From: a virus
Direction: 5' to 3' (one strand)
Length of the DNA stretch: 31,888 nt
Virus record (IMG/VR): IMGVR_UViG_3300044614_000569
Coordinates: 1-31,888 of that record
A model generated the notes under the pieces. It did not search any database. It saw only the letters and a list, made by a program, of their open reading frames with translations, and had not been told where the DNA came from. Made by a program: the position numbers and the translations under genes. Position 1 is the stretch's first letter, and every line of letters starts with the position of its first letter. Below, one piece after another: positions 4,008 to 29,910 of this stretch.

Positions 4008-4039
4008 AAAGGCCCCCAATTAATTTTGGGGGCTTTTCA
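4008..4039 (+). terminator. Rho-independent terminator after the capsid gene
   Basis: A GC-rich hairpin pairs GCCCCCAA (4012-4019) with TTGGGGGC (4026-4033) around a six-base loop, followed by TTTT and more T. It lies 24 bases after the capsid stop and should limit read-through into the connector genes. Confidence 0.9.
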
Positions 4040-4069: not shown

Positions 4070-4091
4070 CCTACAAGAAGGAGAAATAAAT

Positions 4092-4484: not shown

Positions 4485-4498
4485 ACGAAACGTTATAT

Positions 4499-5485: not shown

Positions 5486-5913
5486 TGTTAGACCTTATAG
5501 ACTCAATACTGGTAATGAGATTGGATCTATACAGACAGTCTGATTCACAAGACCCAAACACTGGGGCAATACTAAAATCTTGGAATTTTTATAAAACATT
5601 AGATTGCCACGCAAAAGGAATCATTAGCAACTCATCATCAAGTAGCACAAATGATAGACAGGTATTTGGAAACAAATACACAAACCAGCAAATGATCCAG
5701 GTTAGAACGTCAGAAAGAATAACCTACAGAGAAAAGGTTACTAATATTCGTGATGCAAAAAACAAATCAATCTGGACAGAAATAGATTTTCCAACAGAAA
5801 CCCCAACAGTTTTTGAGGTTGTTGGCTCAACTCCAATTACTGATCCATTTGGAAATGTGGTTGGATATAACACTACATTATCAAGGTCGGAGAATCAGCA
5901 AATTGGCATCTAA
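5485..5913 (+). CDS. Head closure (stopper) protein
   Basis: 142 aa, starting in a TAATG overlap with the adaptor gene. The composition is beta-rich with the pattern MRLDLYRQSDSQDPNTGAILKSW ... TYREKVTNIRDAKNKSIWTE ... FEVVGSTPITDPFGNVVGY, which fits the small beta-barrel stopper (SPP1 gp16 / HK97 gp7-like) that closes the DNA channel below the adaptor. Assignment rests on size, predicted strands and position between adaptor and neck genes, not on a diagnostic motif. Confidence 0.6.
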   Translation: MLDLIDSILVMRLDLYRQSDSQDPNTGAILKSWNFYKTLDCHAKGIISNSSSSSTNDRQVFGNKYTNQQMIQVRTSERITYREKVTNIRDAKNKSIWTEIDFPTETPTVFEVVGSTPITDPFGNVVGYNTTLSRSENQQIGI

Positions 5914-6697: not shown

Positions 6698-7200
6698 CAA
6701 AATATAAAGTAGACTCAATATACGAAATAAGAAAATACCTATGGAAAGAGCTGACTGAATCTGGCGTGTTTGATGCTAATGATTATTACAGCGATAACCT
6801 TGGCCAAGAAATAATACCTATTATTCCAGTACAGCAACAGCCAGAACTTAATCAATTTTTAAGCGGGAAAAAGCATATAGTCTACGATAAGATAGGCCTA
6901 ACGTATGAAGACATATGGCTATTGTCTTGCGAAAAGATTATATTTACAATATATGCAATTGACGTGGCAGATATAAATGAGATCAGAAACCTGATGCTAG
7001 ATGTATTTAGAAGAATGGATGATTCGGCCAGAGATGTAAATGAATTTAGCTCAGAGTCTAATTTGATATTCCATAATACTATGATCCTGGAAGCCTCAGC
7101 CACGGCCCCTTCAGAAGAGATACAGGGATTCTTTTCAGCAGATATTATAATAGAGGTCAAATATTCAAGAGTCACAGGCCCAGGCGGAAGATTTATTTAG
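6694..7200 (+). CDS. Tail terminator / tail completion protein
   Basis: 168 aa; ATG 6694 lies in an ATGA overlap with the neck gene and has GGAGG (6683-6687) upstream. A helix-first layout (SIYEIRKYLWKELTESGVF) is followed by IIPIIPVQQQPELNQFL, strands KIIFTIYAIDVADINEIRNLMLDVFRRMDD, and a final strand DIIIEVKYSRVTG. This alpha-beta pattern and the place just before the tail tube gene match the tail terminator (lambda gpU / SPP1 gp17 role) that caps the finished tail tube. No diagnostic motif is visible, so the call is positional plus fold pattern. Confidence 0.65.
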   Translation: MTKYKVDSIYEIRKYLWKELTESGVFDANDYYSDNLGQEIIPIIPVQQQPELNQFLSGKKHIVYDKIGLTYEDIWLLSCEKIIFTIYAIDVADINEIRNLMLDVFRRMDDSARDVNEFSSESNLIFHNTMILEASATAPSEEIQGFFSADIIIEVKYSRVTGPGGRFI

Positions 7201-7311
7201 GTTGCATTTGGGGGCATTATACTCTAGAATTGTCCTAGAGGAAAAGAGCCTAGCCAGCACTTTTGATTTTTATAAATCAATATATATATTTATTTAATAG
7301 GAGGTAGTAAA
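7201..7311 (+). promoter_or_regulatory. Leader region of the tail tube gene with an inverted repeat
   Basis: This is a 111-base gap in an otherwise overlapping cluster. It contains TATACT (7218-7223), a perfect 6-bp inverted repeat CTCTAG/CTAGAG (7222-7227 and 7235-7240, seven-base loop), a very AT-rich run (7261-7298), and a strong GGAGGT ribosome site (7300-7305). A promoter or mRNA-stabilising leader is likely for this highly expressed gene, but no -35/-10 pair is convincing. Confidence 0.4.
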
Positions 7312-7977
7312 ATGGCACTAAACGCCAAAAATATTCTAGTCGGTGCATCACCACTTTATCTTTCAACAAAAGATTCAACTGATGCAGCATACGTAGAAAA
7401 CATGTTAGACAAGGGAACAGTTGCTTTCACAAAGGGAGCAAAGGCTGCAGTTGCACTAGATGCATCAGCAGCAGTTCGTAACGTAGGTTTCACAAACAAC
7501 GGTCTTCAGATTACTTACAACCCATCATACGGTTCAGTAACAGTAGATCAGCTTCTTGATACAGCAAAGCTATTCAAGGAGTCAATGGAAGTTATGATTG
7601 CAACAGAATTAGCAGAAGGTACACTAGAGAACGTTATGGCCGTATTTGGTCAGGCGTCATCAACAAAGTCAGGCACACTCTCAAAGGGAGCATCTGCAAA
7701 CGATAACGTTGACGAAGTTCTTGGCCTTGAGGCAGGTGCTCTTGGAGTTGCTCCAACAGAGCGTCAGCTATTTGCAATTGGACAGGCTCCAACTGAAGTA
7801 ACACCAAACACAGAGCGTGTATACTACGCACGTAGAGTATTGTCTGTACAGCAGTCACAATTCTCACTTGCTCGTAACGCAGCAACAACATTCCCAGTAA
7901 CATTCCGTTTGCTTCCAGACGGTAATTACGCAGGATCAGAATACGGCAAGATCATTGACCGTGTTACAAAGAACTAA
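7312..7977 (+). CDS. Major tail tube protein
   Basis: 221 aa, with TAGGAGGT seven bases before ATG 7312. The protein forms the stacked rings of the tail tube. The pattern MALNAKNILVGASPLYLSTKD, GFTNNGLQITYNPSYGSVTVDQLLDTAKLFKESMEVMIATELAEGT and RVYYARRVLSVQQSQFSLARN...FPVTFRLLPD is the beta-sandwich tube fold with the long alpha/beta hairpin. Arginine codons are almost all CGT, unlike the AGA of flanking genes, which matches the capsid gene and signals high expression. It is bracketed by a 111-base leader and a strong terminator. Its place just before the frameshifted chaperones and the tape measure makes the call firm. Confidence 0.88.
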   Translation: MALNAKNILVGASPLYLSTKDSTDAAYVENMLDKGTVAFTKGAKAAVALDASAAVRNVGFTNNGLQITYNPSYGSVTVDQLLDTAKLFKESMEVMIATELAEGTLENVMAVFGQASSTKSGTLSKGASANDNVDEVLGLEAGALGVAPTERQLFAIGQAPTEVTPNTERVYYARRVLSVQQSQFSLARNAATTFPVTFRLLPDGNYAGSEYGKIIDRVTKN

Positions 7978-8000
7978 TTAATTAATTTAATTATAGTCAG

Positions 8001-8026
8001 TCCCCCCAGAAATGGGGGGATTTTCT
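8001..8026 (+). terminator. Rho-independent terminator after the tail tube gene
   Basis: TCCCCCC (8001-8007) pairs perfectly with GGGGGGA (8014-8020) around AGAAAT, followed by TTTTCT. It lies 23 bases after the tail tube stop. Confidence 0.9.
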
Positions 8027-8028
8027 AT

Positions 8029-8064
8029 TTGTGCTGATAAAATCTATATGATACAATAATTAAG
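8029..8064 (+). promoter_or_regulatory. Extended -10 promoter for the chaperone/tape measure genes
   Basis: TGATACAAT (8049-8057) is an extended -10 box directly after the tail tube terminator; 17 bases upstream lies TTGTGC (8029-8034), which keeps the TTG of a -35 box. The layout copies that after the capsid gene: terminator, then extended -10 promoter, then a short leader with a strong ribosome site. Confidence 0.55.
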
Positions 8065-8087
8065 ACTAGATCCTAGGAGGATTCAAA

Positions 8088-8420
8088 TTGGCAACAACAG
8101 TATATAGCGTAGAAGAAATTACTCTACAAAATGGCGTAACCGTAAAGCTAAAGCCTTTAACAATTAAAGAGCTTAGAAAGTTTATGGTTGTTATCCAAAA
8201 GACAGCAGACGTAACTACAGAAGACGAAACATTAACAATCCTTATTGAAGCATGTGCAGTAGCACTAGAAAAGCAGTTACCAGACTTGGTAAAAGATGTA
8301 GATGCTTTTGAAGATGTTCTAGATGTTCCAACAATTAACCGCATCCTAGAAGTATGTGGTGGAATTAAGATGGACGACCCAAACCTTCTAGCGGCAGCGG
8401 TTCTGGCTGGGCAGAACTAG
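8088..8420 (+). CDS. Tail assembly chaperone G (unshifted product)
   Basis: 110 aa from TTG 8088, with AGGAGG (8075-8080) seven bases upstream. This is the shorter tail assembly chaperone, which binds the tape measure protein before tube polymerisation and is not in the virion. The sequence VEEITLQNGVTVKLKPLTIKELRKFM followed by an acidic helical region matches the gpG-like family of phages of Gram-positive hosts. Position between tail tube and tape measure is diagnostic. A slippery heptamer near the 3' end lets a fraction of ribosomes make the longer GT form. Confidence 0.85.
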   Translation: MATTVYSVEEITLQNGVTVKLKPLTIKELRKFMVVIQKTADVTTEDETLTILIEACAVALEKQLPDLVKDVDAFEDVLDVPTINRILEVCGGIKMDDPNLLAAAVLAGQN

Positions 8421-8749
8421 ATTTAGCCGCTTTATTAGGAGAAGTTTTTCTTTTAGGTAATTGGAAAAATTACGAAGAGCTAGAAGAAAGCCTCTCAATG
8501 CCAGAACTTGTTCAAACATTTAAGTCAATGCAGAAAAGTGAGTCAGAAAAAAGAAAGTTCTTAGCAGCAATTCAAGGCATTGAGTTAGATGGTGAAGAAG
8601 AAGAAAACAAAGGTCCTACCTTTGAAGACATACAAAGAAGGGCACTTGGAATAGAAGCATCAGGAGATGATGTGGTTTCATTACAAGGCCCATTTGCAGC
8701 AGAAGCTGGCTTTGGTGTTGGAGCAGGATTAGGATACTCAAAGGAGTAA
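8088..8749 (+). CDS. Tail assembly chaperone GT, made by -1 frameshift
   Basis: Join 8088..8384, 8384..8749: 99 residues of G followed by 121 residues in the -1 frame, about 220 aa in all. The -1 frame has no stop from 8369 to 8746, has no ribosome site of its own, and reads DDPN then PSSGSGSGWAELDLAALLGEVFLLGNWKNYEEL, a flexible linker joined to a helical T domain. The T part ends in a glycine-rich tail (AEAGFGVGAGLGYSKE). The internal ATG at 8498 is not a likely start. In known phages G binds the tape measure and T recruits tube subunits, and their ratio is set by frameshift efficiency. Confidence 0.88.
8378..8417 (+). promoter_or_regulatory. Programmed -1 frameshift site: slippery heptamer plus hairpin
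   Basis: C CCA AAC (8378-8384) is a perfect X XXY YYZ heptamer set correctly in the G frame (codons GAC CCA AAC). Fifteen bases downstream GTTCTG (8400-8405) pairs with CAGAAC (8412-8417) around GCTGGG, directly before the G stop codon TAG (8418-8420). Confidence 0.85.
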
Positions 8750-8754
8750 ATTAC

Positions 8755-11700
8755 TTGGCTGAACAAAATATTAATACGAACATAACTGCGACGGCAAACT
8801 TTTCAAGTTTAACAGCGCAGTTAAGAGCCGTAACCGCCGAGTTAGTTAAACTTCAAGCTACAACCATTGGATTAGATAGAAACCTATCTAATGAAGTAGG
8901 CAGAATGAATCGTTCATTTGCCGAAACAATGCGAGCAACTGGACAATTTTCTTCACACTTTGTAACACTTGAATCTGATGTACAAAAGTTTGGAAAGAGG
9001 CTAGATACTGGCCGAATGAAACTTGGCGAGTACTTTGGAGTCTGGCAAGGACACACAAGAAAAACAAGTACATTAATTAAAGATCTTGCTAAGCAGCAAG
9101 TATTAATGGAACAAGCTGTATTGCAACCCCTGGGAAGAAATGCCCAGGGGCAAATGCAATACAATGTCCACGTAGCTAATGGACTAGATCTTTTAAAAAA
9201 TAGAACTGCTTTATTAAGACAAGAGGCATCAATTCTTAACAAGGTGATGCTTGATGGATCCAACCAGCTTATCAACTGGGGTAAAAATACACAGTGGGCA
9301 GGACGCCAGTTAACAGTTGGATTAACAGTTCCAATGATGGCATTTGGTGCGGCAGCACAAAAAGCATTCCTAGAAGCAGACCAGCAGCTAGTTAGACTTA
9401 CAAAGGTTTACGGTGGTTTAGCAGAAACATCTTCTGCAGAACTAAAGCAAGTTAGAAAAGATGTCGAGGAGACAGCAAAAGAATTAGCGTCTATCTATGG
9501 TGCATCATATAAAGAAACAATCGCATTAGCAGCGGATATTGCAGCAACTGGCAAGCAAGGAAATGACCTGCTTGTATCAACGCAAGAAACAACAAGACTT
9601 TCTATCCTTGGTGAAGTAGATAGACAAGATGCAATGAAAGCAACTCTTGCTATTCAAAATGCATTTAAACAAAGCAATGATGAGTTAGCACAATCAATTA
9701 ACTTCCTTAACGCAGTTGAAAACCAGACCTCAACATCTCTTGCGGATTTAGTTGAAGCAATTCCAAAAGCAGGACCAGTAATTGAATCTCTTGGTGGAAA
9801 CGTTCAAGATCTTGCTCTTTATTTAACTGCAATGAAAGAAGGCGGAGTAAATGCATCAGAAGGTGCTAATGCCATTAAGTCATCTCTTGCATCACTTATT
9901 AACCCAACTAAAGTTGCAAAAGAAATGTTTATGGGATTTGGAATTGATCTTGGATCAATTGTAAAGAGTAATGCTGGAGATGTAACTGCAACAATATTAG
10001 CACTACAAGCATCATTAGATAAGCTAGATCCGTTACAAAAAGCTCAGGCAATTGAGCAACTTTTTGGAAAATTCCAGTTTGCTCGTATGGGAGCTTTATT
10101 TAATAACCTTGGAAAAGAGGGCTCACAAACTTTACAAGTATTAGATTTGATGAAAGCAAGCACAGAAGAGCTAGCAAGTATAGCAGACCGAGAATTAAAG
10201 GCTATGACAGAGTCTGCATCTGGACAATACAAAAGAGCACTTGAAACAATTAAGGCAGAACTTGCAGGCGTCGGTGATCAGTTCTTAAAGATAAGCACAT
10301 TTGTATTAAAAACAATCAGCGGAATAATTAAGTTTGTAGAAAATCTACCAGGACCAATCAAGTCATTACTGACATTCCTTGGTGGACTAACAGCATTTGC
10401 AGGACCACTTATCATGCTTACTGGTGTGCTTGGAAACTTCCTTGGATATATTATCAAGGGAGTATTCCATCTAAAGCAATTATTTAAGGGTGGCTCAGGA
10501 TTTAAATTATTAACACCTGAAATGATGGCAGCAGCAGAAGCTGGTAAGGTTGTAGAAAAATCATTCTTTAGTGATGCACAAGCTGCAATAGCATTAGAGA
10601 CAGCAGTTAATAATCTTGCAGCGTCATTTGATAGATTGAAGGCAAGCGCATTAAATTCAGCAGTTGCAACAAGCTCAAGTATAAGTACAATGGGTGGAGC
10701 AACAGTATTGTCTCCAACAGGCGTTGCAGCAAATGCAGAAAGAATGGCAGATAAAGATAGCAAGTTTATAGGGGCTCCTTATAGCAGACAATTTGCACAC
10801 ACCATACCTGCAGCTATACAGCAGCCAGGAACCATATTTGGCGTTGTTCCAAACCCAGGTCCAGTAAATGTTAGAGTAAGCAACAACCCACAGATGTATA
10901 TGGATCAGGATCTTCCAAGAGTTCCTGGCGTAACATCTATAAGTGGAGTTTCTACGGGAATCGTAGCTGCAGAAGCTGCTAAATGGCATGCTATGACAGC
11001 AGCAATTGCTACACAGTCACAAGCAGAGCTTTCATTATTAAAGACCGAAGTAGCAGCAACTGGCACAGTTACACATGAGTTATCTTCAGTATACCAAGCA
11101 ATGCTTCCACAGATGCAACAGCTCACACAATTGGCTGCAGATGAAGGAGCTATGATTGTAAGACAGCTACAGCAAGGTGTAATCACTGTAGATCAAGCAA
11201 GAGCAAAAATTATTTCATTAAATGCAACCATTGAAGTTATGATGGCAGAAACAGCTGCACAGGTTGCCGCTGGTATGGGAAGAGGAATAAATCTAACTAC
11301 AGTACCATTTACTAGCCAGCCAGTGGTTGATCCAGTAACTGGCAAGTCCAACATGAAAGAAATGTTCCATAAGCCAGAGACAGCAGCTCTTGTCGATAAG
11401 GTTGCAGAAGGATTAGGTGTTAGAACTTCTGGCGGCGGATACAGCATAGAAACAACTAAGCCAAGAATTATTCTTCCAAAGAGAGGTCCACTTAGAGGCT
11501 TTAATGATGGTGGATATGTATACACATTAGAAGATGGCCCAGTTGTACCTGGTGACAAGAGTGTAAACTATGACAACACAATGGCAAAAATACCAGTTGG
11601 TGGTTTTGTATTAAATCAAGATGCAACAAGAAATAATCCACAGCTAGTGGAATATGCAAAAAAGAGTAAGCCATATAACCGTGGCGGAATGATTGATGCA

Positions 11701-14700
11701 ATGCTGACTCCATATGAGACAGTATTTACACCAGAACAAACACAAGAGATGTTGCCTATACTAGAGGCAGCAAATAACGGACAAAGAATTCAATTTAGAA
11801 ATGCAGGCGGAATCTTAGGCGGACCAATTGTTTCTGGCAAGCACAACTATGGAAGATTTGATGCATTAAAGAGTTTGTTTAAAAGAAAGAAAGCAAAGTC
11901 AGCAGATGATTTAGCAAACCTTTCGCCACAAATAAGGCTTGGAAGAGAGCATAGAACTGACGCAGATGATGCTCATGATTATGTTGAAGGCGTATTTGGA
12001 GCTGCTGCACCAAGAAGAGGAGTTCTTGGAAATAAAAATGGATACTTCTTTGTTGGAAACTGGGGACTGAATACTAGAAAAACAACAAATTCAAAGATAA
12101 ATGCGGGGACAGCTAAGCCACAAGAAATAATAGATGACATAATGTTCCTTCCCCCTTCAGAGGCACTACCAGCACTAAGAAGATTTTTAAAAGTAAATAA
12201 AATAGATGACGAGTTGGCTGATAGACTTGTGCTAGAGGCAAGAGACGGTATCGTATCAAATCTTGCATCACATGGAGACTCGCTTATTGGAGAAAGACTA
12301 TTTGCACAAGCTCAACACGCAGAGTACCTTAAAATAGCAGATCAGCTAGGGCTAAGAAAAAGATATATTGATTCTTTAAATGTACCTGGGCAGAGAAGAG
12401 GGTTCAAAGATCCAGGAAACCACTCCTCTGGATTTCAGGGTGCAACAGCAATAAGTCCATATAGAACATCTGATCTTGATACTTTAATAACAAAAAATGA
12501 AGAGTTTGGTACAAACTTTATGGGCTCTTATGAAACATATAATCCTAAAGAACTAAAGATTAATGGTGAAGATGGAGCATTTGCTCATATGATGCTTGAT
12601 GGCTTTGCAATGGGCGGAATCATTAAAAAGAGAAAAGCTAACTATGGAAGATTATTCCTTGGAATGCCTAAATCAATTAAGCAGGTTCAAGAGCAAAGAA
12701 AACGTAGAGAGGTTATGGAGCAGACGACAGAAGCAGTTAACAAGAGTCGTTTTGCAAAAGAAGAACCAACTAACTTTGGAAAGAAAGAAGAAGATACAAA
12801 AGGACACAGCTTCCCAGTTGAAGGAGTGGGCGGAGTATACACAAAGCCAGATGGAACAAGAGTATTTGTTAAGCCAGTCCTTGATGAAACTGCTGCACTT
12901 GCTGAGCAAAGATATAATGCAATACACCAAGGCGCACATAGATTAACACCTCCTCAGCAGGAAATAAGGGTAATGATAGACCCAACAGATCCAGCAGGTA
13001 AAAGAAAGCTTCTTGTTCTTGAATCACCTTATGATCCAAGATTTGCAAGCTTACCAAAAGAAATGTCAGAGCAGGAGTACTTCCAGCAGTTACTTGCATC
13101 AGCATTAAGAGGAGATAAAGACTTATCACCTGGCAACATTGGAGGAAGTTTTGTTGCAGACGGCGGAACTATGGGTGTATTTAAAACAGCTTCTGGTTTA
13201 AGATCATATGCAGACGATATGCCATCAGTTGCAGAACAAGCAAGAATTAATTTACTTGGCGTAAAGGGCGGAGCAAAGAGATTTTTTGCAGAATCAACAG
13301 TAGACATTCCAAGAGGAATGACCCCTCAGCAATATCAGCAATCGATGCTTAATGAAATTGATGAAGTCCTTCCTAGACTAAAAGAAACAATTGCTGGCTT
13401 TAAAGGTCTAACTCCAAGAGAAGAAGAAGTTTATGCTGCAATGATAAAAAGACTTGAAGATGCAAGGCATGTAAACTGGAAAGAGTTTCATGGCATACAT
13501 TCAGCAGTCAAACCAACAGCTCCAAAATCATTAACACCAGCAGCGCTTGCTAAATTAGAAGAAGCTGCAGCATTAAGAGCAAGACAAAAAGGCCACGCTG
13601 TAAGCCTAAGTGATATGGCATTTAAATCTGATGCTAATGGATTTAATGGCGGTGGATTAATCAATGTTATTAAATCTCTTGCTATGCGTAGAATTGGTGC
13701 AGGGTTTGGCAAGAATACAACTGGCGGATGGGGAGTAACATCACTAGAAATAGGAATGGCAGAAAAGCTATTTGCTTCTAGCGGATTAACAAAGAGAACA
13801 CAAAGAATTCTTTATGACAAGTTTGCAGAAGCACTTGCAAAAGAAATGCCATATGGCTATGCTAAAAATGCACAAGGACAATTATTAAAAGCACTAGAGC
13901 CAGACATTATGGACTCAGTCATTAGATCAGCTGCGTCTTCTACAATTTCCGCACCAGAAGGAAGAAGAGTATTATCTGCAATAGATAGAGATATTCTTAA
14001 GAGAAGATACACAAATTGGGAATCTAGAAAAGATACTCCATTAACAGAAGAGCTAAAGAAATTAATATTTGGCTTAGAGGGCAGAGAAAAGGGCGGACCT
14101 GTATCTGGTGGCACACCTTACATAGTTGGAGAAAAGGGGCCAGAGCTATTTGTTCCTATGAACAGTGGAGGTATTGTTCCTAACCATGCATTAGGCGGAA
14201 TGATTAGAACTGGAAAGTATAATTATGGAGCACTAGGTCCAGTTGCAAGCATTGTAGCACAGCAAGCTTTGCCATTAGCTGCATTCATGTTATTGCCAAA
14301 AGCTTTAGAGAAGTTGGGAATCGCCAGCGAAAAATCAAACCTTATTCTAAATGGAATATTTGCAGTAATGACTGCTGGATCAATTTACAAGGGTGTAAAA
14401 ACTGCAAAGGCTGCAAAGGCTGCTAAAGCAGCAGGTAGTGTTGTAGACGATGCCGCAGAAACCGCAGTAGCAACTAAGAGCGTTAGTAAATTTGCACAAA
14501 GCTTAGCCAAACTAAGATTAGTTGGAATGGCAATTCCTGGTTGGGGTAAGGTAGCAGTAGTAGCACTTACAACACTTGCAACAGTATCTTATGGAGCGTG
14601 GGAGAATGCAAGAAAGGCAAGACTTGCCTCTCAAGAAGCTTTTGATGTAAATGAAAAGCAAGCAAAACAACTTGGAATTGCATACGTAAGTTTAACTGAT

Positions 14701-17700
14701 AAAATAAAAAAGGCAACAGATGCAGCACAAGCACAAAGTCAATTAACTAAGGTAAAGGCAGCGGGATCTACTGCAATTGGCGGCGGAATTAATATGTCCG
14801 TAAAAGAACTTAATGCATTACAAAAGAAAGCCAAAGAGACACAAGGCGATATTGTGTCTATGTTTAATGACCTTGATAAAAATGATGTTACAAAAGCAGC
14901 AACAGCACTAAAGGTTCAGCTAGTTGCAGCAGGAAAATCAGCACAGGATGCAGCAAGAGAAATTTACAGCATTATATCTATTTCAAATAAAGCTTCACAG
15001 GCTACAGAGGCTGTATCATCAACAGAATTTTTAAAGATAGTCGATAGAGCCTCAGCAGCAAAGGTAGCAATAGATACTTTTGTAAAGTCAATGAATGCTT
15101 CCGATGTTGATAAAAAAGAAATTGCAGCATCATTTAGCGGTGGATTAGATGCAATACAGCTTTATTACCAAAGCTTAGTAGGGGTAAAAGATGCTAGCGG
15201 AAAAGCAAAGTCACAAGTAGAAGCTTTAAATGACACTATAGCCCACATGAATGCCAACAAATCTAATCAACAAGATATTGGCGACAATATATTAAATACA
15301 CTTATACAAGAAAACCCACTATATAAAGACATATTAAATTCAACTGATAGCATGGTTGATGCTTGGGCAAAAATACAGTTATATACAAATGGAGTCACAG
15401 CAGACCTTTCTGATATAAGTGGAGAAGAGGCTCAAGGACTACTACAGGTTGTAAACGCTATATCTCAAGCAGCAACAGAGATGACAACAAATGCTAATTT
15501 AATGAATAACCCAATTGATGCAATTGCAGAATACGGAGCAGCTGCAAAGAAAGCATACGATGATGCAAAAAAGGCATCAGATGATGCAACAAAGAATGCT
15601 CAAAAGAATGCAGATGCAGAAATAAAAGCTCTTGATAAAAAGATAGAAAAAATCAATGAAGAAGCAGATGCAAGAATACGTGCCATTGAAGATCAAGCAG
15701 AAAAGCAAGACTATTTAACAGAGGTTCAAAAAGAGCAACTAAACTACCAGCAAGCATTATTGTCTGGCGATATGTCTCGTGCAGCACAATCCCAGCTTAA
15801 TATACAAAGCTTAACAAACGAAAGACAAAAAACACTATCAATAAATGCAATTCAAGATAAGAGAGATGCAGAAGTTAAAAAACTTGAGGCTCAAAAAGCT
15901 GGTGTTCAAGAGAGACTTATTAAGCTTCAAGAGCGAGCAAACAAGTTACAGGAAATAGCTAACGCTAAGCAAAAAGAATATGCGTCAGTACAAGCATTGC
16001 AGCAGAGCATTGCAACAACTTTATCTAAAGCAGCAATTACAACAGACGAAGGAACAATTGCTTTACTTGCTGAGGCACTTCGCTCAGATGTAGCTGCCTT
16101 AGCAGCGCTTGGATCAGATGGTGCAAAAGCTGCTAAAACCGTAACAAGCGGAGTTCCAACATCAAAGGGATCAACAATAGTAACGCCAGGAGGCCAGCCT
16201 ATAGTACAGCCTGGTAAACAAGACTGGGTAGCGTATCTTAAATCATTAACAAATGATCCTGGTGGCCCAGCAAATTCAACAGTAGAATATGCTAAAACTT
16301 ATTTTGAAAAATTTGGCACTCACGTTGAAGACTTTGGTTTGTATGTTAAAACATTAACTGGATTAGATGAGGTTAATGGAACAAGAACTATACCTTTAAG
16401 CAAGCTTCGTGGAGAAATTAAAAAAGACCCAGAAAATCCTAATGATTATAATAAAATGGAATACTTTACAGCAGATGGAAAATCTGTTGGCAAAGGAGCT
16501 AAAGGAAGAGCAAAGTACTTTGAGAACCCAGAAAAGCCTATGTCTGGAGAAGCTTATATATATCCAAATAGCAAAGTAAATCGTGGTGCGCTTAACGGAG
16601 TGCAAGACATAAATCTAGCACTTTACAATAAAGGAGTAAAAACTCCTCTTGTTCAAGACGGATTAAAATATGAGCACAATGGTTCTGTAACAAAGGGAGG
16701 AAAAGTAGTTGGATATTGGGGATACAATATTCCTAATGTTGGATTTAGATCCTATGCTACAGGAGGACCAGTTAAGAATTTTGAGTGGGGTGGAAATGTA
16801 AAGGGTCCAGGAACTGGAACATCTGATTCTATTCCAGCTTGGCTTTCAAATGGTGAGTATGTAATTAAAGAAAAAGCTGTAAAGCAATATGGAGTTAGTT
16901 TCTTTGATGGACTAAATGCTCAAAAGCTTGCAGGTGGTGGCCCAGTTGGATTAGGGTCACCCTCACCAATAAACTCAGGATATTTAAATAAAGGCGGAAT
17001 GATTCCTGGGTTTGCAGAAGGTGGCTGGCTGTCAAGATTTAATCCATTAAATTGGTTTAGTAATGCAGGAAGTGCTTATGTTACTGGAATGCAAAACCAT
17101 GGAGCAAAAAAACTTGATTACCGTGCACCAGAATACAAGACATCTTTAAGCCAGTCAGAAAAGAACGCTACTGCTTTAGAGGCATTAAAAGAAATTTCAA
17201 TGTACAACACAGCTGGAAGAATTGCACAAGGCAACGCTGGAGCTATGGACTACGCATCTATAATTCCATTTATTAGGCCAACCAGAGCCATCAGATCTAC
17301 TAGAAATAAACTAGAAGCACTTAAGCTTATGAAGCAGGGAGTCCATAATTCCCCAAATCCAAACCTAGCTGATGAGCTTTTACATCCACTCGAATACCAG
17401 GCTCAAAAAGAACAAACTTTAGGAAACTTTACACACTTTTCATCAAGCCCTAAGTATCAAGCTGGAAATCCAAGATACGGTAGTAACTCATATAAGACAA
17501 AGCTAGATGTTAAAGCCATAATGACAATATTAAAAAGTAAAGGGTTTGCTAGCTCTACAGATATGGCAAAAAAGTATGGTCTTACAGAAGGTATGTATGG
17601 AGTAAAATTTAATCATCCAGCAGTCCAAGCAGCTATGAAAGACGGATACATTGGAACCAAGTACATGATTGGCAATGAAACTGCTGGACAATTTGCTCCA

Positions 17701-20034
17701 TTCTATACTGGAGTCAAAAATCATCCACTAGGCAGGATAAAAGGGTTCCATGACGGTGGTCCAGTAGGTCATAAGCACGACTCAACAAATGTGATGTCAG
17801 CGCCTAAATGGACAAAGCTTGATGGAAAAAAACATTATGTTTATGATAAGTTGAGTGGTGGATTTGGTATCAGTGTAATAGATACAAAGGGAATGACTCT
17901 TGATCAGCTTAATGCTAGATATATTGATAAGGGAGTTTATACTGAAAGCCAATCTAAAAATAAAAGTTCATCCAACAACTCTCCTTATTCTTATGGACCA
18001 GCAGTTGGAGATGGACTGTTTAGGGGATTCTCAGTACCTTGGCTTGACGCATTAGGTATAAAAGGATTAATGCAAACAGGAAATAAAATTTTTCGAGGAG
18101 GAAAAGAAAGCGAATTCTTTGGAAAACCAAATAAGGGTGACTATGCAAATGCTGCGTTATTCCCCCTCAACTTCCTTGTAGGCAAAACCAAAGCAGCAAA
18201 ATCTATATCAAAGTACCCACTAGATGTTGCTGCACCATCTGCAAAGATGTTGGGATCAGCAGCACTAAGAGCCGTACAACAAACGCCTAAAGGCATATTA
18301 AATACTCTAAGGTCTGTGTTATGGAAAACAGTTGGCGCAACAAAAGTAGGCAAAGAGGCGTTGTATAAAATACCTAAAATTGCTGGCTTTAGACCTTATA
18401 GTCCAAAGGGGGTTCCATCTGTATTTACTAATACAGCCGATTATGTTAGAAGAACAGGCAAAAGCTTTTTTGACGATATTACAAATCGTCCTCGTATTCT
18501 ACCATCTCGTACTGGTGCTCCTGGAGGAGCAAAGGCTTGGGATGATTGGGCAGACCTAAGCAATGTTGGTAAGACAAATCCTCAGGAAGCCTTTGGTGAA
18601 CTTTTTGGGCTACTATCTAATTTAACTAAAGCGACAACTTTAAATCCTATTGCTAAAATTGGAAGCAAGGTAAAGTCAAAAATAACTTCTGGCATTGATG
18701 CTAAAAAGAATTCATTTAAATTCTTTAAAGAATTTATATTGCCAGCAAAATCTTCATTTAATCCAAAGCAAGCTATATCAAATTTCTTATACAGATACAC
18801 CCCATATGGAACAATGAAAGCTAGAAAAATATTAGAAATGGGTGGAAGAGAAGGAAGCTGGTCACCTTCAGCAGTTGATCCAAGCTCAGGACCAGAAATG
18901 TTTGAAACACTTAAAGAGCTATCAATGCGTCCTTTTTATCATGGAGGCATACTTCCAGAAACACTTTTAGATAGATCAGTACCTGGTGTTTTAGGAAATG
19001 CAGTAGATGACATGTTTGCTGCTAAGCACAGCATGTTCGGAAACCTTTTTGACTTTGATTTGTTTACCACAGCTTCAAAAGGAATGTCTTCATCATATTC
19101 AAAAACTAAAAATACGGTTAATGTGTTTAGCGAAGAAGCTGGAAACATATATGAAATGTTTTTCAAAAAACTTACTGGAAGAAAAACTTTAGATTTACGT
19201 GGCGGACAGAAATCAATTTGGTCTCAAAGCAAAAGAGCCTATGCAGCTCTAGAATCGTTTTTAGCTAAAACTCACGGAATGGAAACTGCAAGACTGATGT
19301 TGGCAGGAGAAAGAATACCTGGTCAAGCATTTAGCTCACTTGGTAGAGCAAGAGATAGCTTCTTGCAAGGAGAGAATTTAAGGCTAGCTTTTACCAAGCT
19401 AGGTCCAAAAGGATTTAAATACCTTATTGACACAATAGTTCATGAAGGTGGAAGAAATACAAATTCTGTGTCCCACCCAGTTGTAGCATCTTTAGCTCCT
19501 CAAAAAGTAGTATCTGGATTTAAAAAGATATTAGATGGAAGAGATCTAGGATTTTTTGATTCCCTGAACTTAAGCAAAGTGGGATTTACTAAAATATCAT
19601 CAGAATTAGAAAAAACACTAACAGAAATTGTTACGAGAGCTGCTGATCAAAAAGAAAGATTGGGTAAGGTTTTGCCATTCTTAAAGGCTGGGCATTTTGC
19701 AGAAGGAGGAATGGCTGGAGGAAAATTCAACATTCCTAAATTTGAAACTGGAATTAATAATGTCCCAGCAGATATGCTTGCGATGCTTCATAAGAATGAA
19801 GCAGTAGTTCCTGCTAACATGAACCCCTTTAATCCTAATGCTAATAATGCTACAATGGGTGGAGGCGTATATAACATTACAAATAATATTAATGGATTTG
19901 ATGGTGACATAAATGCACTATCTGATATGGTTACAAGAAAAACAGTTGAGTCTATGAAGACAATGAGCAAGATATCAGTTAAATCTATGGGAGAAAGTAG
20001 ATCACTAGGAAGTGGATTGGAGGTTAGAGCATAA
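8755..20034 (+). CDS. Tail tape measure protein (3759 aa, multidomain)
   Basis: Sets tail length, fills the tube lumen and is ejected ahead of DNA. TTG 8755 has AAGGAG eight bases upstream. Residues 1-170 are helical; about 173-500 match the TP901-type tape measure core (ADIAATGKQGNDLLVSTQ, AIPKAGPVIESLGG); about 517-571 and 1829-1950 hold hydrophobic membrane-like helices; about 2263-2425 is a charged coiled coil. The rest alternates Gly-rich beads (GG-[ILMPYF]) with globular segments. Tape-measure hallmarks are GEKGPELFVP (1792), GTSDSIPAWLSNGEYVI (about 2688) and MLAMLHKNEAVVPANMNPF near the C-terminus. Unusual segments are about 1030-1290 (unknown), 1345-1600 (kinase-like), 2870-2990 (unknown, THFSSSPKYQ) and 3390-3490 (ADP-ribosyltransferase-like). 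Fully helical it would span about 560 nm at 0.15 nm per residue; the globular parts imply a shorter tail. Confidence 0.93.
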   Translation: MAEQNINTNITATANFSSLTAQLRAVTAELVKLQATTIGLDRNLSNEVGRMNRSFAETMRATGQFSSHFVTLESDVQKFGKRLDTGRMKLGEYFGVWQGHTRKTSTLIKDLAKQQVLMEQAVLQPLGRNAQGQMQYNVHVANGLDLLKNRTALLRQEASILNKVMLDGSNQLINWGKNTQWAGRQLTVGLTVPMMAFGAAAQKAFLEADQQLVRLTKVYGGLAETSSAELKQVRKDVEETAKELASIYGASYKETIALAADIAATGKQGNDLLVSTQETTRLSILGEVDRQDAMKATLAIQNAFKQSNDELAQSINFLNAVENQTSTSLADLVEAIPKAGPVIESLGGNVQDLALYLTAMKEGGVNASEGANAIKSSLASLINPTKVAKEMFMGFGIDLGSIVKSNAGDVTATILALQASLDKLDPLQKAQAIEQLFGKFQFARMGALFNNLGKEGSQTLQVLDLMKASTEELASIADRELKAMTESASGQYKRALETIKAELAGVGDQFLKISTFVLKTISGIIKFVENLPGPIKSLLTFLGGLTAFAGPLIMLTGVLGNFLGYIIKGVFHLKQLFKGGSGFKLLTPEMMAAAEAGKVVEKSFFSDAQAAIALETAVNNLAASFDRLKASALNSAVATSSSISTMGGATVLSPTGVAANAERMADKDSKFIGAPYSRQFAHTIPAAIQQPGTIFGVVPNPGPVNVRVSNNPQMYMDQDLPRVPGVTSISGVSTGIVAAEAAKWHAMTAAIATQSQAELSLLKTEVAATGTVTHELSSVYQAMLPQMQQLTQLAADEGAMIVRQLQQGVITVDQARAKIISLNATIEVMMAETAAQVAAGMGRGINLTTVPFTSQPVVDPVTGKSNMKEMFHKPETAALVDKVAEGLGVRTSGGGYSIETTKPRIILPKRGPLRGFNDGGYVYTLEDGPVVPGDKSVNYDNTMAKIPVGGFVLNQDATRNNPQLVEYAKKSKPYNRGGMIDAMLTPYETVFTPEQTQEMLPILEAANNGQRIQFRNAGGILGGPIVSGKHNYGRFDALKSLFKRKKAKSADDLANLSPQIRLGREHRTDADDAHDYVEGVFGAAAPRRGVLGNKNGYFFVGNWGLNTRKTTNSKINAGTAKPQEIIDDIMFLPPSEALPALRRFLKVNKIDDELADRLVLEARDGIVSNLASHGDSLIGERLFAQAQHAEYLKIADQLGLRKRYIDSLNVPGQRRGFKDPGNHSSGFQGATAISPYRTSDLDTLITKNEEFGTNFMGSYETYNPKELKINGEDGAFAHMMLDGFAMGGIIKKRKANYGRLFLGMPKSIKQVQEQRKRREVMEQTTEAVNKSRFAKEEPTNFGKKEEDTKGHSFPVEGVGGVYTKPDGTRVFVKPVLDETAALAEQRYNAIHQGAHRLTPPQQEIRVMIDPTDPAGKRKLLVLESPYDPRFASLPKEMSEQEYFQQLLASALRGDKDLSPGNIGGSFVADGGTMGVFKTASGLRSYADDMPSVAEQARINLLGVKGGAKRFFAESTVDIPRGMTPQQYQQSMLNEIDEVLPRLKETIAGFKGLTPREEEVYAAMIKRLEDARHVNWKEFHGIHSAVKPTAPKSLTPAALAKLEEAAALRARQKGHAVSLSDMAFKSDANGFNGGGLINVIKSLAMRRIGAGFGKNTTGGWGVTSLEIGMAEKLFASSGLTKRTQRILYDKFAEALAKEMPYGYAKNAQGQLLKALEPDIMDSVIRSAASSTISAPEGRRVLSAIDRDILKRRYTNWESRKDTPLTEELKKLIFGLEGREKGGPVSGGTPYIVGEKGPELFVPMNSGGIVPNHALGGMIRTGKYNYGALGPVASIVAQQALPLAAFMLLPKALEKLGIASEKSNLILNGIFAVMTAGSIYKGVKTAKAAKAAKAAGSVVDDAAETAVATKSVSKFAQSLAKLRLVGMAIPGWGKVAVVALTTLATVSYGAWENARKARLASQEAFDVNEKQAKQLGIAYVSLTDKIKKATDAAQAQSQLTKVKAAGSTAIGGGINMSVKELNALQKKAKETQGDIVSMFNDLDKNDVTKAATALKVQLVAAGKSAQDAAREIYSIISISNKASQATEAVSSTEFLKIVDRASAAKVAIDTFVKSMNASDVDKKEIAASFSGGLDAIQLYYQSLVGVKDASGKAKSQVEALNDTIAHMNANKSNQQDIGDNILNTLIQENPLYKDILNSTDSMVDAWAKIQLYTNGVTADLSDISGEEAQGLLQVVNAISQAATEMTTNANLMNNPIDAIAEYGAAAKKAYDDAKKASDDATKNAQKNADAEIKALDKKIEKINEEADARIRAIEDQAEKQDYLTEVQKEQLNYQQALLSGDMSRAAQSQLNIQSLTNERQKTLSINAIQDKRDAEVKKLEAQKAGVQERLIKLQERANKLQEIANAKQKEYASVQALQQSIATTLSKAAITTDEGTIALLAEALRSDVAALAALGSDGAKAAKTVTSGVPTSKGSTIVTPGGQPIVQPGKQDWVAYLKSLTNDPGGPANSTVEYAKTYFEKFGTHVEDFGLYVKTLTGLDEVNGTRTIPLSKLRGEIKKDPENPNDYNKMEYFTADGKSVGKGAKGRAKYFENPEKPMSGEAYIYPNSKVNRGALNGVQDINLALYNKGVKTPLVQDGLKYEHNGSVTKGGKVVGYWGYNIPNVGFRSYATGGPVKNFEWGGNVKGPGTGTSDSIPAWLSNGEYVIKEKAVKQYGVSFFDGLNAQKLAGGGPVGLGSPSPINSGYLNKGGMIPGFAEGGWLSRFNPLNWFSNAGSAYVTGMQNHGAKKLDYRAPEYKTSLSQSEKNATALEALKEISMYNTAGRIAQGNAGAMDYASIIPFIRPTRAIRSTRNKLEALKLMKQGVHNSPNPNLADELLHPLEYQAQKEQTLGNFTHFSSSPKYQAGNPRYGSNSYKTKLDVKAIMTILKSKGFASSTDMAKKYGLTEGMYGVKFNHPAVQAAMKDGYIGTKYMIGNETAGQFAPFYTGVKNHPLGRIKGFHDGGPVGHKHDSTNVMSAPKWTKLDGKKHYVYDKLSGGFGISVIDTKGMTLDQLNARYIDKGVYTESQSKNKSSSNNSPYSYGPAVGDGLFRGFSVPWLDALGIKGLMQTGNKIFRGGKESEFFGKPNKGDYANAALFPLNFLVGKTKAAKSISKYPLDVAAPSAKMLGSAALRAVQQTPKGILNTLRSVLWKTVGATKVGKEALYKIPKIAGFRPYSPKGVPSVFTNTADYVRRTGKSFFDDITNRPRILPSRTGAPGGAKAWDDWADLSNVGKTNPQEAFGELFGLLSNLTKATTLNPIAKIGSKVKSKITSGIDAKKNSFKFFKEFILPAKSSFNPKQAISNFLYRYTPYGTMKARKILEMGGREGSWSPSAVDPSSGPEMFETLKELSMRPFYHGGILPETLLDRSVPGVLGNAVDDMFAAKHSMFGNLFDFDLFTTASKGMSSSYSKTKNTVNVFSEEAGNIYEMFFKKLTGRKTLDLRGGQKSIWSQSKRAYAALESFLAKTHGMETARLMLAGERIPGQAFSSLGRARDSFLQGENLRLAFTKLGPKGFKYLIDTIVHEGGRNTNSVSHPVVASLAPQKVVSGFKKILDGRDLGFFDSLNLSKVGFTKISSELEKTLTEIVTRAADQKERLGKVLPFLKAGHFAEGGMAGGKFNIPKFETGINNVPADMLAMLHKNEAVVPANMNPFNPNANNATMGGGVYNITNNINGFDGDINALSDMVTRKTVESMKTMSKISVKSMGESRSLGSGLEVRA

Positions 20035-20510
20035 TGGGTTATACAAAATTACCTAAAGGCGTAGGGCTACAAATAGAGGGCAAGGATGTTCTTGCCACTG
20101 TACCAGGCACCACTTTAACTTGGCTAAAAATATCTGACCACAATAGATCAGAAATAACTGTAGGCTCAAATAGAATCCAGCAAGTTCAAAGAATGGCTAA
20201 CGGAACCCTCAGAAAATTTTTTATTGCTGATAAAAAAACATTTAGCATGTCTTGGAATATGCTACCAACTACAAGAACACATACGGCAGACGGAAACCTT
20301 GGGGCAGAAGATCTAAGAAGATTTTATGCAAGCGAAGAGGGCAAGGGCACATTTAGAATACTATTAAATTTTGCAAAGTCTGGTGCCGCAGAAGACAATG
20401 TCAATACAGGAGAAGTATATACAGTATCGTTTACAGAATTTTCCGCAGTCTTACAAAAGCGTGGATTACATTCTTTCTGGACAATATCAATGACGCTGGA
20501 GGAAGTATAA
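20034..20510 (+). CDS. Distal tail / tail tube-like minor protein
   Basis: 158 aa, starting in a TAATG overlap with the tape measure and preceded by GGAGGT. It is beta-rich with the pattern ITVGSNRIQQVQRMANGTLRKFFIADKKTFSMSWNMLP, then a helix EDLRRFYASEEGKGTFRILLNF, and ends FWTISMTLEEV. These are features of the ring that joins tail tube and tip (distal tail protein) or a tube-initiator homologue. Position directly after the tape measure supports this. Distal tail protein versus a tail-tube paralogue cannot be settled by eye. Confidence 0.65.
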   Translation: MGYTKLPKGVGLQIEGKDVLATVPGTTLTWLKISDHNRSEITVGSNRIQQVQRMANGTLRKFFIADKKTFSMSWNMLPTTRTHTADGNLGAEDLRRFYASEEGKGTFRILLNFAKSGAAEDNVNTGEVYTVSFTEFSAVLQKRGLHSFWTISMTLEEV

Positions 20511-26502: not shown

Positions 26503-29500
26503 ATGGCAGAGTATCAGGATTTACTTAAAGACACATCGCAGTCATATGACAACGGCGATTACTTTATTGTAACCATACCAGGCCTGATACCAGGAACTAT
26601 TTATCCATTAGAGTTTAGATGGAAGTATAAGGATGGAACATTTGGAGAAGATTGGTCTGCAGTAAAAGTTATTACCGCACCTGCTGAATCTATTCCACAA
26701 CCACCATCCCCAGCAGTTGTAACATACTCACAGGGAATCATTACAGTAAAATGGGACGGCAAAAATTCTACTGGTGGGTCTTATCCTGCAACATTAGATA
26801 AGATTGAAGTTTACATAAAGTGGGCGGCAGATGCAGATAACCTATATATTAGCAAAGGCTCAATCCCAGCAACAGGTGGATCAATAAATATACCAGTACT
26901 ACCAGGTGACTATAATATAAAGCTAAGGTCAGTATCAAAAACAGGTGCATGGTCTGGGTTTAATCAAGTTGTAAATGTAACAGCAAAAGCAGATGCCCCA
27001 ATAGTTCCAACATCAATTGTCCCAGCATGGTCTGGTACAGACTTTACTATAGGATTTAATTCTAATCCCGCAGCAACAGGAAATGAATATTTGTCTTTCT
27101 ACCTAATTAAGTTAACAGCTAATGATGGTACAACAAGAGACTTTACTTTAAGAGCAACTAACGCTGCATCACAAAAGTTTGCTTTAAGCTTAGCAGAGAA
27201 CACAGCGGCATTTGGTGTCCCACAGACATCATTCTCAGGCTCCGTATCCACAGTAGATGTATATGGCAATATTGGAACAGCTGTAACATTTGGTGCACAT
27301 GTATACGTTAATAACTTACCAGCACCAACAATAACAGTGACAGAGGCAGTCGAAGGCTATACCGTAGCATACACAACACCAGCAGATAAAACATTTAGCA
27401 GCATTGAAATACAAGAAGTAGAGTCAACTGCAACAAATGACCCAGCTTTTGGATATGAGACATGCTTTTCTGGATCATCTAATCCAGTAGTAATAACAAG
27501 AAGTAATCAAAACAAGCGTTGGGTGAGAGCTAGATTTATTGCTAATAACGGAAGTGCTGGACAATACGGAACAGCAGTTTCTGTTACACCTAAATCAGTA
27601 GTTGTTGCAGATTTAATTCCACCAACAAATCCGACAGGAATAGGTGCGGTTGCAACAGTTGATGCTTACGACCAAACTGGATTTAGTTTGTCTTCAAGGA
27701 TTTCTTGGACAGCATCAACAGATACTTCTACAAGAGGTTACAGACTTCGGTGGTCACCAGATAACCCAGCAACAGTGCCAAATCCAAATTGGGAATATGG
27801 ATTTACAAATGCTAGTTCATTTACTGCATCTGGGCTTATTCCAAATGTAACATATTACTATCAAGTTGCATCTGTAGATCAATATAATAATACACAAACA
27901 TACAGCGCAACCCAGACTTTCACAGCTGCAGATTCTGCTGCAACCGCTGTAAATGCTGCAGCAAGATTAAAATCAATATTAGCAATTGGTGGAGCAACAG
28001 GAGACCTGTTTAAGTTTGGAACAGGAATACCTGATTCAATTAATACTTCTATAACAACTACCCCAACAAATTCACCTTCACCAGTTGGCGGATATCATGG
28101 AATACTTTTAAATAAAACGGGAAACAAAAACAACTACTGGCTTACAACAGGACAATTGCGTGTTGGAACAGATACACAGTTTATGTACTTTAATGGAACA
28201 AACCTTTATCTTACTGGAAATATAAATGCAGCAAGCGGATCATTTACTGGTAGCGTTAATATTGCAAACGGTGGCTCATTATATTCTGGTGCAATTGTAG
28301 GTGGAAATTTATCTGGTGCTGGATATATATTAAATTCAAGTGGCCTTACATTTAACTCAGCAGGCACAAATGGTATAACAACTATTAATGGAACTACTGG
28401 TAAGCTCACTACAGCATCTGCTTCTATTGGTAACTGGGATGTAACATCAAGCGCCATATCAAAAACAAGCAGCTCTGGAACATTAACACTTAATTCATCG
28501 ACAGCTCAGATAACAGCAGCTAGCTCAACGTATCAAGCTGGTATAGCTACACCGAATACAAACTCTCCATCTGACATTGTTTTCTGGGCGGGTGGATCAA
28601 GAAGCACATCTGCTCCATTTTATGTAAGAGCAGACGGATCAGTTGTTATGACAAGTGCAACTATTACTGGATACGCACAAGGCAACTTATCTAACTACGC
28701 AACAACTACAGCGCTAAGCACTGGACTTGCTGGCAAAATAAATGCAGCTGGAGCTGCGGCAGATGTTAATAGCAATACTACAACAATTTCTGGTGGCAAG
28801 ATTCGAGCAGGTGTTATAGAGTCTGGTGGATGGATAGCACCAACAACTGGCGTTGGTGGAACATCTCCTTTCTCAGTAAGAGGAATGCAAATAGTTCTTG
28901 ATGGTAATGGATCTATAATAGGACCACAATTTTATATAGACTCCAGTGGAGGCGCTAGATTTAAAGGAAACATAACTGGAGCTACTGGAACATTTAATGG
29001 ATCAGTTTCTGGAGGCTCTTTCACAGCAACAGACGGAACAAATACATTAACAATTGCTGCAAATGGAGCAATATCAAATAGCTCTGGTAAGTTTAGCGTA
29101 TCTTCTGCTGGAGTTTTGCAAGCATCCTCAGTAATAATTTCTGGTGATATAACAGCAAATAATATTACTGCTGGCAGCTCAATATCTGGAGTCACCTTTA
29201 CAGCATCCAAAATGACAGCTGGCGAATCTGGCGATAGCTATTATTTTAATACAAGAATTTCTAAAAATGGTATAGAGTCCGTAGTTGTAAATGCAATAGG
29301 AATTGAATCTAGCAGAACTGGTGGAGTCTCAACACACTGGTATCCTTACTATTCTGGAACTACCGCTAACTTTGATCTTGGAACAATTGCATATCCATGG
29401 AACGATGGAAGATTTGCTGGTTCCATAATGGTTGGATATAGGAGTCAAGATGCAACAGGAACTACATCTCCTGGATCCACAGCAGGACCAAGGATTAAGC

Positions 29501-29910
29501 TAAATGCTACTGGACCAATATTTGCTAACACACTTGGCTTGGGCTCTGGAAATTCAATAGTTCAGGACGCTGGTTTTCTAAGAGTTCAAACATCCAGTTT
29601 AAGATATAAGGAAAACATAAATGAAATTGATAAGTCTGGGTACCTAGATATAATTAATTTATTAAAGCCTGTCACATATAATTATATTGGTGATACTGGA
29701 TATAATGGAAACCCACGTATATTATCTGGTTTGATAGCAGAAGACTTACATGATATTCCACAGTTAAGAACAGTTGTAAATTATAACGAAGAAAATCAGC
29801 CAGACGGCATAGCATACGATAGACTTAATGCTTCACTAATTTTAGCAATACAAGAAATGTCTCAAAAAATAGATGCCCTTTCAAATAGGCTTGACGCCCT
29901 AGAAGGATAA
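26503..29910 (+). CDS. Tail fibre with Fn3 domains and C-terminal S74 self-cleaving chaperone
   Basis: 1135 aa receptor-binding or fibre protein. Residues about 1-480 are tandem Fn3/Ig-type domains; one clear Fn3 is at about 372-476 (LIPPTNPTGIGAV ... NVTYYYQVASVDQYN). Residues about 490-1010 are Gly/Ser/Thr/Asn-rich repeats with the hallmark rhythm of triple-stranded beta-helical fibres (GNITGATGTFNGSVSGGSFT, GDITANNITAGSSISG). The last 105 residues are an intramolecular chaperone of the endosialidase/S74 type: SSLRYKENINEID carries the Ser1031-Lys1036 dyad, followed by ILSGLIAEDL and a final coiled coil (ILAIQEMSQKIDALSNRLDAL). In this family the chaperone trimerises the fibre and cuts itself off just before the Ser. 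ATG 26503 has a weak ribosome site, so coupling to the previous gene is likely. Confidence 0.88.
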   Translation: MAEYQDLLKDTSQSYDNGDYFIVTIPGLIPGTIYPLEFRWKYKDGTFGEDWSAVKVITAPAESIPQPPSPAVVTYSQGIITVKWDGKNSTGGSYPATLDKIEVYIKWAADADNLYISKGSIPATGGSINIPVLPGDYNIKLRSVSKTGAWSGFNQVVNVTAKADAPIVPTSIVPAWSGTDFTIGFNSNPAATGNEYLSFYLIKLTANDGTTRDFTLRATNAASQKFALSLAENTAAFGVPQTSFSGSVSTVDVYGNIGTAVTFGAHVYVNNLPAPTITVTEAVEGYTVAYTTPADKTFSSIEIQEVESTATNDPAFGYETCFSGSSNPVVITRSNQNKRWVRARFIANNGSAGQYGTAVSVTPKSVVVADLIPPTNPTGIGAVATVDAYDQTGFSLSSRISWTASTDTSTRGYRLRWSPDNPATVPNPNWEYGFTNASSFTASGLIPNVTYYYQVASVDQYNNTQTYSATQTFTAADSAATAVNAAARLKSILAIGGATGDLFKFGTGIPDSINTSITTTPTNSPSPVGGYHGILLNKTGNKNNYWLTTGQLRVGTDTQFMYFNGTNLYLTGNINAASGSFTGSVNIANGGSLYSGAIVGGNLSGAGYILNSSGLTFNSAGTNGITTINGTTGKLTTASASIGNWDVTSSAISKTSSSGTLTLNSSTAQITAASSTYQAGIATPNTNSPSDIVFWAGGSRSTSAPFYVRADGSVVMTSATITGYAQGNLSNYATTTALSTGLAGKINAAGAAADVNSNTTTISGGKIRAGVIESGGWIAPTTGVGGTSPFSVRGMQIVLDGNGSIIGPQFYIDSSGGARFKGNITGATGTFNGSVSGGSFTATDGTNTLTIAANGAISNSSGKFSVSSAGVLQASSVIISGDITANNITAGSSISGVTFTASKMTAGESGDSYYFNTRISKNGIESVVVNAIGIESSRTGGVSTHWYPYYSGTTANFDLGTIAYPWNDGRFAGSIMVGYRSQDATGTTSPGSTAGPRIKLNATGPIFANTLGLGSGNSIVQDAGFLRVQTSSLRYKENINEIDKSGYLDIINLLKPVTYNYIGDTGYNGNPRILSGLIAEDLHDIPQLRTVVNYNEENQPDGIAYDRLNASLILAIQEMSQKIDALSNRLDALEG

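Follow-up and report, generated by a model that had tools for sequence, protein, structure and literature searches.

Does the tape measure protein (TMP) of a phage tail also carry an enzyme that could act on the host? The question is raised by a viral DNA of 31,888 nucleotides (IMG/VR record IMGVR_UViG_3300044614_000569, positions 1 to 31,888, referred to here as the window), in which a segment near the C terminus of the TMP had been likened, in a preliminary description, to the H-Y-type ADP-ribosyltransferase (ART) domains of phage polyvalent proteins. Our analysis indicates that this segment is probably a divergent ART domain in a modular TMP. Judging from sequence comparisons, we put at roughly 0.6 the probability that it is related to the H-Y-D ARTs of polyvalent proteins and forms the last domain of a swappable TMP cassette; the domain, its conservation, its profile similarity to ARTs, and the difference in cassettes between siblings are shown by the data, and we infer from them an ART fold, NAD+ chemistry, delivery into the cell, and a host target. 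The motifs given in the preliminary description were found exactly at the residues named there, namely, YHGG at 3395 to 3398, FTTASKGMSSSY at 3437 to 3448, and GNIYEMFFKKLTGRKTLDLRGG at 3463 to 3484. Its coordinates, 18916 to 19240 (residues 3388 to 3495), covered these motifs (residue 3392 corresponds to nucleotide 18928) but are too short for the domain as delimited by alignment. The domain and its motifs are as follows.

18856 to 19560, plus strand: ART-like domain of class I, TMP residues 3368 to 3602 (about 235 amino acids), defined by alignment and by a profile match to polyvalent ARTs.
18937 to 18948, plus strand: YHGG, residues 3395 to 3398, putative strand 1, which holds the invariant H3396.
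19063 to 19098, plus strand: FTTASKGMSSSY, residues 3437 to 3448, with F3437, T3439 (+2), and Y3448 (+11) in the spacing of polyvalent ARTs.
19189 to 19206, plus strand: LDLRGG, residues 3479 to 3484, containing D3480, which is unchanged in both classes (I and II).
19423 to 19452, plus strand: LIDTIVHEGG, residues 3557 to 3566, with D3559, unchanged throughout class I and a candidate for the third (strand 5) residue.
19474 to 19509, plus strand: HPVVASLAPQKV, residues 3574 to 3585, resembling by eye the VVFNPNQIKS end of several polyvalent ARTs.

The domain belongs to a small and diverged family. A search with peptide patterns found the segment in only two other loci, L003 (100%) and L004 (86%). 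A query with the N-terminal part of the TMP retrieved at least 596 relatives, 80 of which were kept for comparison, and the segment was matched in nine loci among these relatives and L004. The relatives kept came to 160 overall, drawn from two queries that each returned at least about 600 matches. Alignment-based scans located the domain, termed class I, in 16 IMG/VR contigs (14 plus 2), which correspond to 9 lineages by near identity. A second class of TMP domain, class II, was found first in L096, then in 9 further loci, and also in L181 and L201; a comparison of the two classes with hhalign gave an E-value of 5.5e-7 and a probability of 92%. Two TMPs hold both classes, at residues 2257 to 2446 and 2929 to 3148 in L096 and at residues 2785 to 2980 and 3181 to 3399 in L097. 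In the alignment of 10 class I rows (A3; 88% to 28% identity to the window, some rows being close kin), the residues invariant in all rows include H3396, G3397, G3398, D3435, L3436, F3437, T3439, Y3448, K3452, N3453, D3480, R3482, D3559, H3563, G3565, G3566, H3574, and P3582. H3396 and Y3448, the two residues singled out in the preliminary description, are thus conserved, and their conservation extends to the joint alignment of both classes (A10; class II rows cut to about their first 109 residues), in which all 17 rows share H, G, F, T, Y, and D3480. The joint alignment showed no clear class II counterpart of D3559, and HG[GS] is present upstream in both classes. The ratio of nonsynonymous to synonymous substitution rates (dN/dS) was 0.093 between the window and L004 (243 codons), indicating purifying selection, and 0.163 between L016 and L071 (233 codons).

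The spacing of the central motif, [FYW]-x-[TS]-x5-[AGS]-x2-[YF], is shared by 12/12 class I rows, 10/10 class II rows, and 14/17 reference ARTs (several rows are near-duplicates; the reference rows that lack it are L217, L220, and L225). Elsewhere in 107 TMPs it occurred 19 times in about 259,700 residues, ART segments excluded, and none of these occurrences had HG[GST] within 70 residues upstream. A scan with a looser motif returned 20 matches in 72 long open reading frames (ORFs), many of which overlap, compared with 2.8 in shuffled copies.

The active site of polyvalent ARTs is given by Iyer et al. (2017) as a strand 1 His, a strand 2 Tyr, and a strand 5 Asp, with the RPP1 vRNAP as prototype (PMC5512222). 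We confirmed a match to PF18760 in the prototype phage, Roseovarius Plymouth podovirus 1 (CBX87992), and used tblastn relatives of the prototype as reference ARTs: 7 rows (A6, from 19 records), to which 10 rows (28 records) were added to give 17. Compared by hhalign with A6, class I gave an E-value of 0.0013 and class II one of 0.00015, the F-x-T...Y motif being in register with F/Y-x-T...Y of the references. Against the 17 reference ARTs, class I scored 29.3 (maximum of 20.5 in 200 column shuffles; 14.0 for the reversed profile) and class II 33.2 (22.7 and 16.9, respectively). With the 7-row reference and 100 shuffles each, the scores were 31.6 versus a maximum of 19.5 for class I and 34.6 versus 26.1 for class II. 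A match due to composition only was rejected, since none of the 100 or 200 shuffles reached these scores and the reversed profiles scored low. When 90 profiles of TMP segments were compared with the references (the window and six other long TMPs, leaving aside segments with fewer than 2 rows and the class I core of the window), the two that contained a class II ART scored 30.8 and 30.4, and the next best scored 18.6. In addition, the window sequence alone, slid along class II, found its best place at the ART-like segment (E 0.0013). The proposed H-Y layout is supported in part, in that F-x-T...Y is in register with polyvalent ARTs and scores above shuffled and other TMP profiles, but the aromatic residue at the strand 2 position is F3437, not Y3448, and D3559, the candidate third residue, had no place in the preliminary description. 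The prototype likewise has Phe at that position, and it also has Tyr where Y3448 stands, 11 residues on. Diphtheria toxin and PARP-1 have two tyrosines each at this 11-residue spacing.

The domain lies in a part of the TMP that differs between otherwise similar viruses, the relevant features being the following.

8755 to 20034, plus strand: TMP, ORF of 3759 amino acids with a TTG start, from the ORF call and the Pfam and PHROG matches.
9469 to 10068, plus strand: PhageMin_Tail (PF10145) match, TMP residues 239 to 438, conserved scaffold (Pfam, 8e-25).
17026 to 19704, plus strand: exchangeable cassette, TMP residues about 2758 to 3650, with ends at Gly-Gly linkers and without a DNA match in either of the sibling contigs L006 and L123.
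19705 to 20031, plus strand: conserved C-terminal tail of the TMP, residues 3651 to 3759; sibling DNA is about 94% identical from 19716 onward.

The ORF at 8755 to 20034 is a TMP by family match and genomic place, as had been proposed. PhageMin_Tail is its only clear Pfam match and lies in the N-terminal part; the PHROG TMP family matches this part as well (4.6e-124), with two small matches near residues 1770 to 1816, and the neighboring genes encode portal, head protease, structural, head-tail adaptor, and minor tail proteins. Apparently the same virus is carried by L003 (115,479 bases). Compared with its sibling L006, the window TMP is 100% identical over residues 1 to 1000 (100-residue bins), and the DNA is 93.9% identical over 1 to 16351 and 93.6% over 19716 to 20201, where L006 ends; L123 runs on with 94.6% identity to window position 21591. 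In between, the sibling DNA had no match at 16352 to 16770 or at 17010 to 19715, and only 16771 to 17009 matched (79.6%). At the protein level, similarity to L006 is good as far as residue 2757, at the linker IPG..GG, and resumes near residue 3650, with earlier divergence at residues 2501 to 2700 (41 to 43%) and 1001 to 1300 (56 to 81%). The cassette of L006 also holds a class I ART-like domain, which is 27 to 28% identical to that of the window. The converse holds for L004, which has the cassette end in common with the window (window 18210 to 19943, 84.5% DNA identity) but a scaffold that is only 62.6% identical in protein sequence over residues 232 to 1009. Another cassette segment, window 17290 to 17739 (TMP residues 2846 to 2995), is rare: the TMPs of L007 and L010 match it at 64 to 70% identity, few other matches were found among the TMPs compared, and no Pfam family was matched.

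ART-like domains were present in 11 of 107 full TMPs (at least 1500 amino acids), 5 with class I and 8 with class II, including 2 with both. The median length of these carriers was 3554 amino acids, versus 2302.5 for TMPs without ART. The closest noncarriers to the ART-carrying TMPs share 81 to 94% identity with them in the N-terminal region. Together with the cassette comparisons of L004 and L006, this kinship suggests that cargo domains are gained and lost on a ruler that itself is conserved.

A number of results weigh against a relation of the segment to ARTs. (i) Pfam, searched at E 10, assigned no family to the window segment; seven relatives gave only stray matches, each in one member (UBA_DHX29, 0.0012; Antimicrobial_7, 0.012), and PF18760 itself was not matched by the segment, the seven relatives, or four related records (E 10). 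Class II likewise had no ART match in Pfam. (ii) Sequence searches of the PDB returned no ART; one gave nothing, and the best matches of others were weak and unrelated (phosphoglycerate kinase at 0.039 in one search, 0.37 in another). No ART was found in protein searches of phage records with the segment and both ART classes or in a DNA search. (iii) The hhalign probabilities against the reference ARTs were 19 to 65%, with E-values that refer to single comparisons, and the confident match extends over at most some 50 columns, chiefly those of F-T...Y. Neither D3559 and the reference Asp nor HPVVASLAPQKV and VVFNPNQIKS of the references were paired by hhalign. With the window sequence alone against the 7-ART alignment, the segment was not among the 8 best places. 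(iv) Structure prediction and a fold search, which the preliminary description had named as the check, gave no significant fold match. The model from A3 (10 rows, window first) had a predicted local distance difference test score (pLDDT) of 33 and was unusable. The model from A10 (17 rows, with the class I domain of the relative L096 first) reached a pLDDT of 60.5 and a predicted template modeling score of 0.63; its best E-value was 1.2 in the PDB fold search (best 50 of 86 matches) and 0.59 in a viral fold library, and VIA with 161 chains gave a best Z of 2.6 for an unrelated hydrogenase. A phage ADP-ribosylase at rank 19 of the viral fold search (E 7.1) is meaningless. In this model, H3396 corresponds to residue 18 in strand 16 to 19, a part of low confidence, Y3448 falls in a helix, and D3559 corresponds to residue 169, directly before strand 170 to 175. 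Null fold searches with a model of such moderate quality are not evidence of absence of an ART fold.

Three other explanations were weighed. The segment may be of ART-like ancestry and catalytically dead, with a structural or host-binding role at the tail tip. It adjoins the conserved tail of the TMP, a position that in another siphophage corresponds to the contact between TMP and baseplate (PMC11445458), and a Phe occupies the strand 2 position expected to hold Tyr; however, the prototype polyvalent ART shares this Phe, and H3396, T3439, Y3448, D3480, and D3559 are invariant down to 27 to 28% identity, as an active site would be. Moreover, the sibling swaps the cassette yet keeps the downstream DNA, and we consider a dead module unlikely. 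That the segment is an unrelated enzyme or adhesin domain, its likeness to ARTs being a chance match of an aromatic-T-A-Y motif, would agree with the short span of the confident match and with libraries that returned neither an ART nor a significant fold match; yet the same match was obtained from two diverged TMP classes, was equaled in 0/200 shuffles of each and in 0/88 other TMP segments, and is accompanied in both classes by the upstream HG[GS], which leaves this explanation rather improbable. Finally, an assembly chimera as the source of the difference between the window and L006 is conceivable for records that are all metagenome assemblies but most improbable, and a single bad assembly was rejected, because each cassette version recurs at 100% in a second contig (that of the window in L003, of 115 kb, and that of L006 in L123) and the TMP frame is open in the window, L003, and L006.

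If the segment is a divergent ART domain, its position points to a route of delivery. The cassette would be held between the ruler part of the TMP and the conserved C-terminal tail, with the ART-like domain as its last element. On opening of the tail, the C-terminal part of the TMP would exit first, so that a domain just before the C terminus would be among the first out; ejection into the host is suggested by analogy with other siphophages (PMC11445458). Entering along with the DNA, the domain might then fold in the host envelope or cytoplasm and use NAD+ to ADP-ribosylate a host target, as is suggested by the analogy of T4 Alt and the polyvalent ARTs, both of which are described as virion delivered (PMC5512222); the outcome would be to help the phage in the takeover of the cell. 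Two points speak against such a route. The extruded C-terminal part of the JBD30 TMP is said to be cleaved off (PMC11445458), and a folded domain may not fit the tail lumen, in which case it would travel unfolded or sit in the baseplate. A broader proposal, to which we give slightly less than even odds, is that the TMP of this large phage group is a modular carrier of effectors built on a conserved ruler. Sibling phages would trade cassettes of effector domains, among them the two ART classes and perhaps a kinase-like one, at Gly-Gly linkers, much as polymorphic toxins do, and the cassettes would be injected at the onset of infection. The variability of the ART-like stretch between siblings suggests a second role for the tail ruler, that of an exchangeable vehicle for proteins directed at the bacterium. 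If this is true, TMPs are a place to seek early-acting factors of host takeover, and, since TMPs with similar N termini differ much in length, the idea that only the ruler part determines tail length becomes open to test.

TMPs with muralytic domains are known, so that extra domains inside a TMP have a precedent; muralytic domains differ in that they act on the cell wall and not with NAD+. The closest known counterpart is ART-PolyVal (PF18760; Tox-ART-HYD2 clade), which shares H in an HG motif, aromatic-x-T, Tyr 11 residues on, a downstream Asp (here a candidate), and a large multidomain carrier that is probably virion delivered (PMC5512222). The present domain differs in that it has no PF18760 match and a long insertion that separates LDxRGG from the D3559 motif, and in that a siphophage-type TMP carries it, where the known ARTs reside in MuF/portal fusions or N4-type RNA polymerases. 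Since PF18760 was not matched, we do not file the segment in that family and call it a related ART-like domain in a new carrier. Polyvalent proteins combine several effector domains in one delivered protein; in the TMPs of the group, two ART-like domains occur in L096 and L097, OmpA, LysM, and CHAP occur in relatives, and kinase-like motifs lack library support. T4 Alt and the MuF-VIP2 ART fusions of Microbacterium phages are similar in that their ART, in or with the virion, may pass into the host together with the DNA (PMC5512222, PMC7302621), whereas the T4 Alt/VIP2 clade is of the R-S-E type and consists of head proteins (PMC5512222), unlike the H-Y-(D) type and tail location here. Polymorphic toxin systems resemble the arrangement in their constant delivery scaffold and exchangeable C-terminal domains (PMC3482391); here the carrier is a viral tail protein with a conserved tail after the cassette.

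Virion ARTs have been described for heads, MuF/portal fusions, and N4-type RNA polymerases (PMC5512222, PMC9503650, PMC7302621). The main text of two ART surveys (PMC5512222, PMC9503650) never uses the word "tape", and titles and opening parts of abstracts in the open-licence literature yielded no description of an ART inside a TMP. A large survey of mosaicism in phage proteins reports that no genuine case of recently emerged mosaicism could be confirmed in TMPs (PMC10684548); the window and L006 appear to be such a case.

Several further observations concern the TMPs of this group. Window 12775 to 13614 (TMP residues 1341 to 1620) holds a domain with kinase-like motifs (VKP, LRGDKDL..GN, and D.G) that is conserved in 37 rows of related TMPs. 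Pfam and the PDB gave no support for a kinase, which is therefore not claimed. ABC1 kinase was matched weakly in 3/20 TMP C-terminal parts. OmpA domains were found inside 4/20 and 2/27 scanned TMPs, that of L106 among them, LysM in 1/20 and 1/27, and CHAP in 1/20. The TMPs of L104 and L138, one of several such pairs, measure 3614 and 2180 amino acids at 88.4% identity; such large gaps at similar N termini suggest that, in this group, tail length may not follow from the full length of the TMP. As to the host, exact peptide patterns of the ART segment and the TMP N terminus had no match in bacterial genomes, and no host was found in this way. The TMP N terminus (window 9205 to 10299) matched 288 phage records, including 127 from Streptomyces and 105 from Gordonia, which hints at an actinobacterial host; the best 30 of the 288 matches were all Streptomyces phages (39.5 to 41.9% identity). 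Farther downstream, window 26503 to 29910 encodes a large protein of the tail region that contains fn3 and, at the C terminus, a Peptidase_S74 (endosialidase chaperone) domain.

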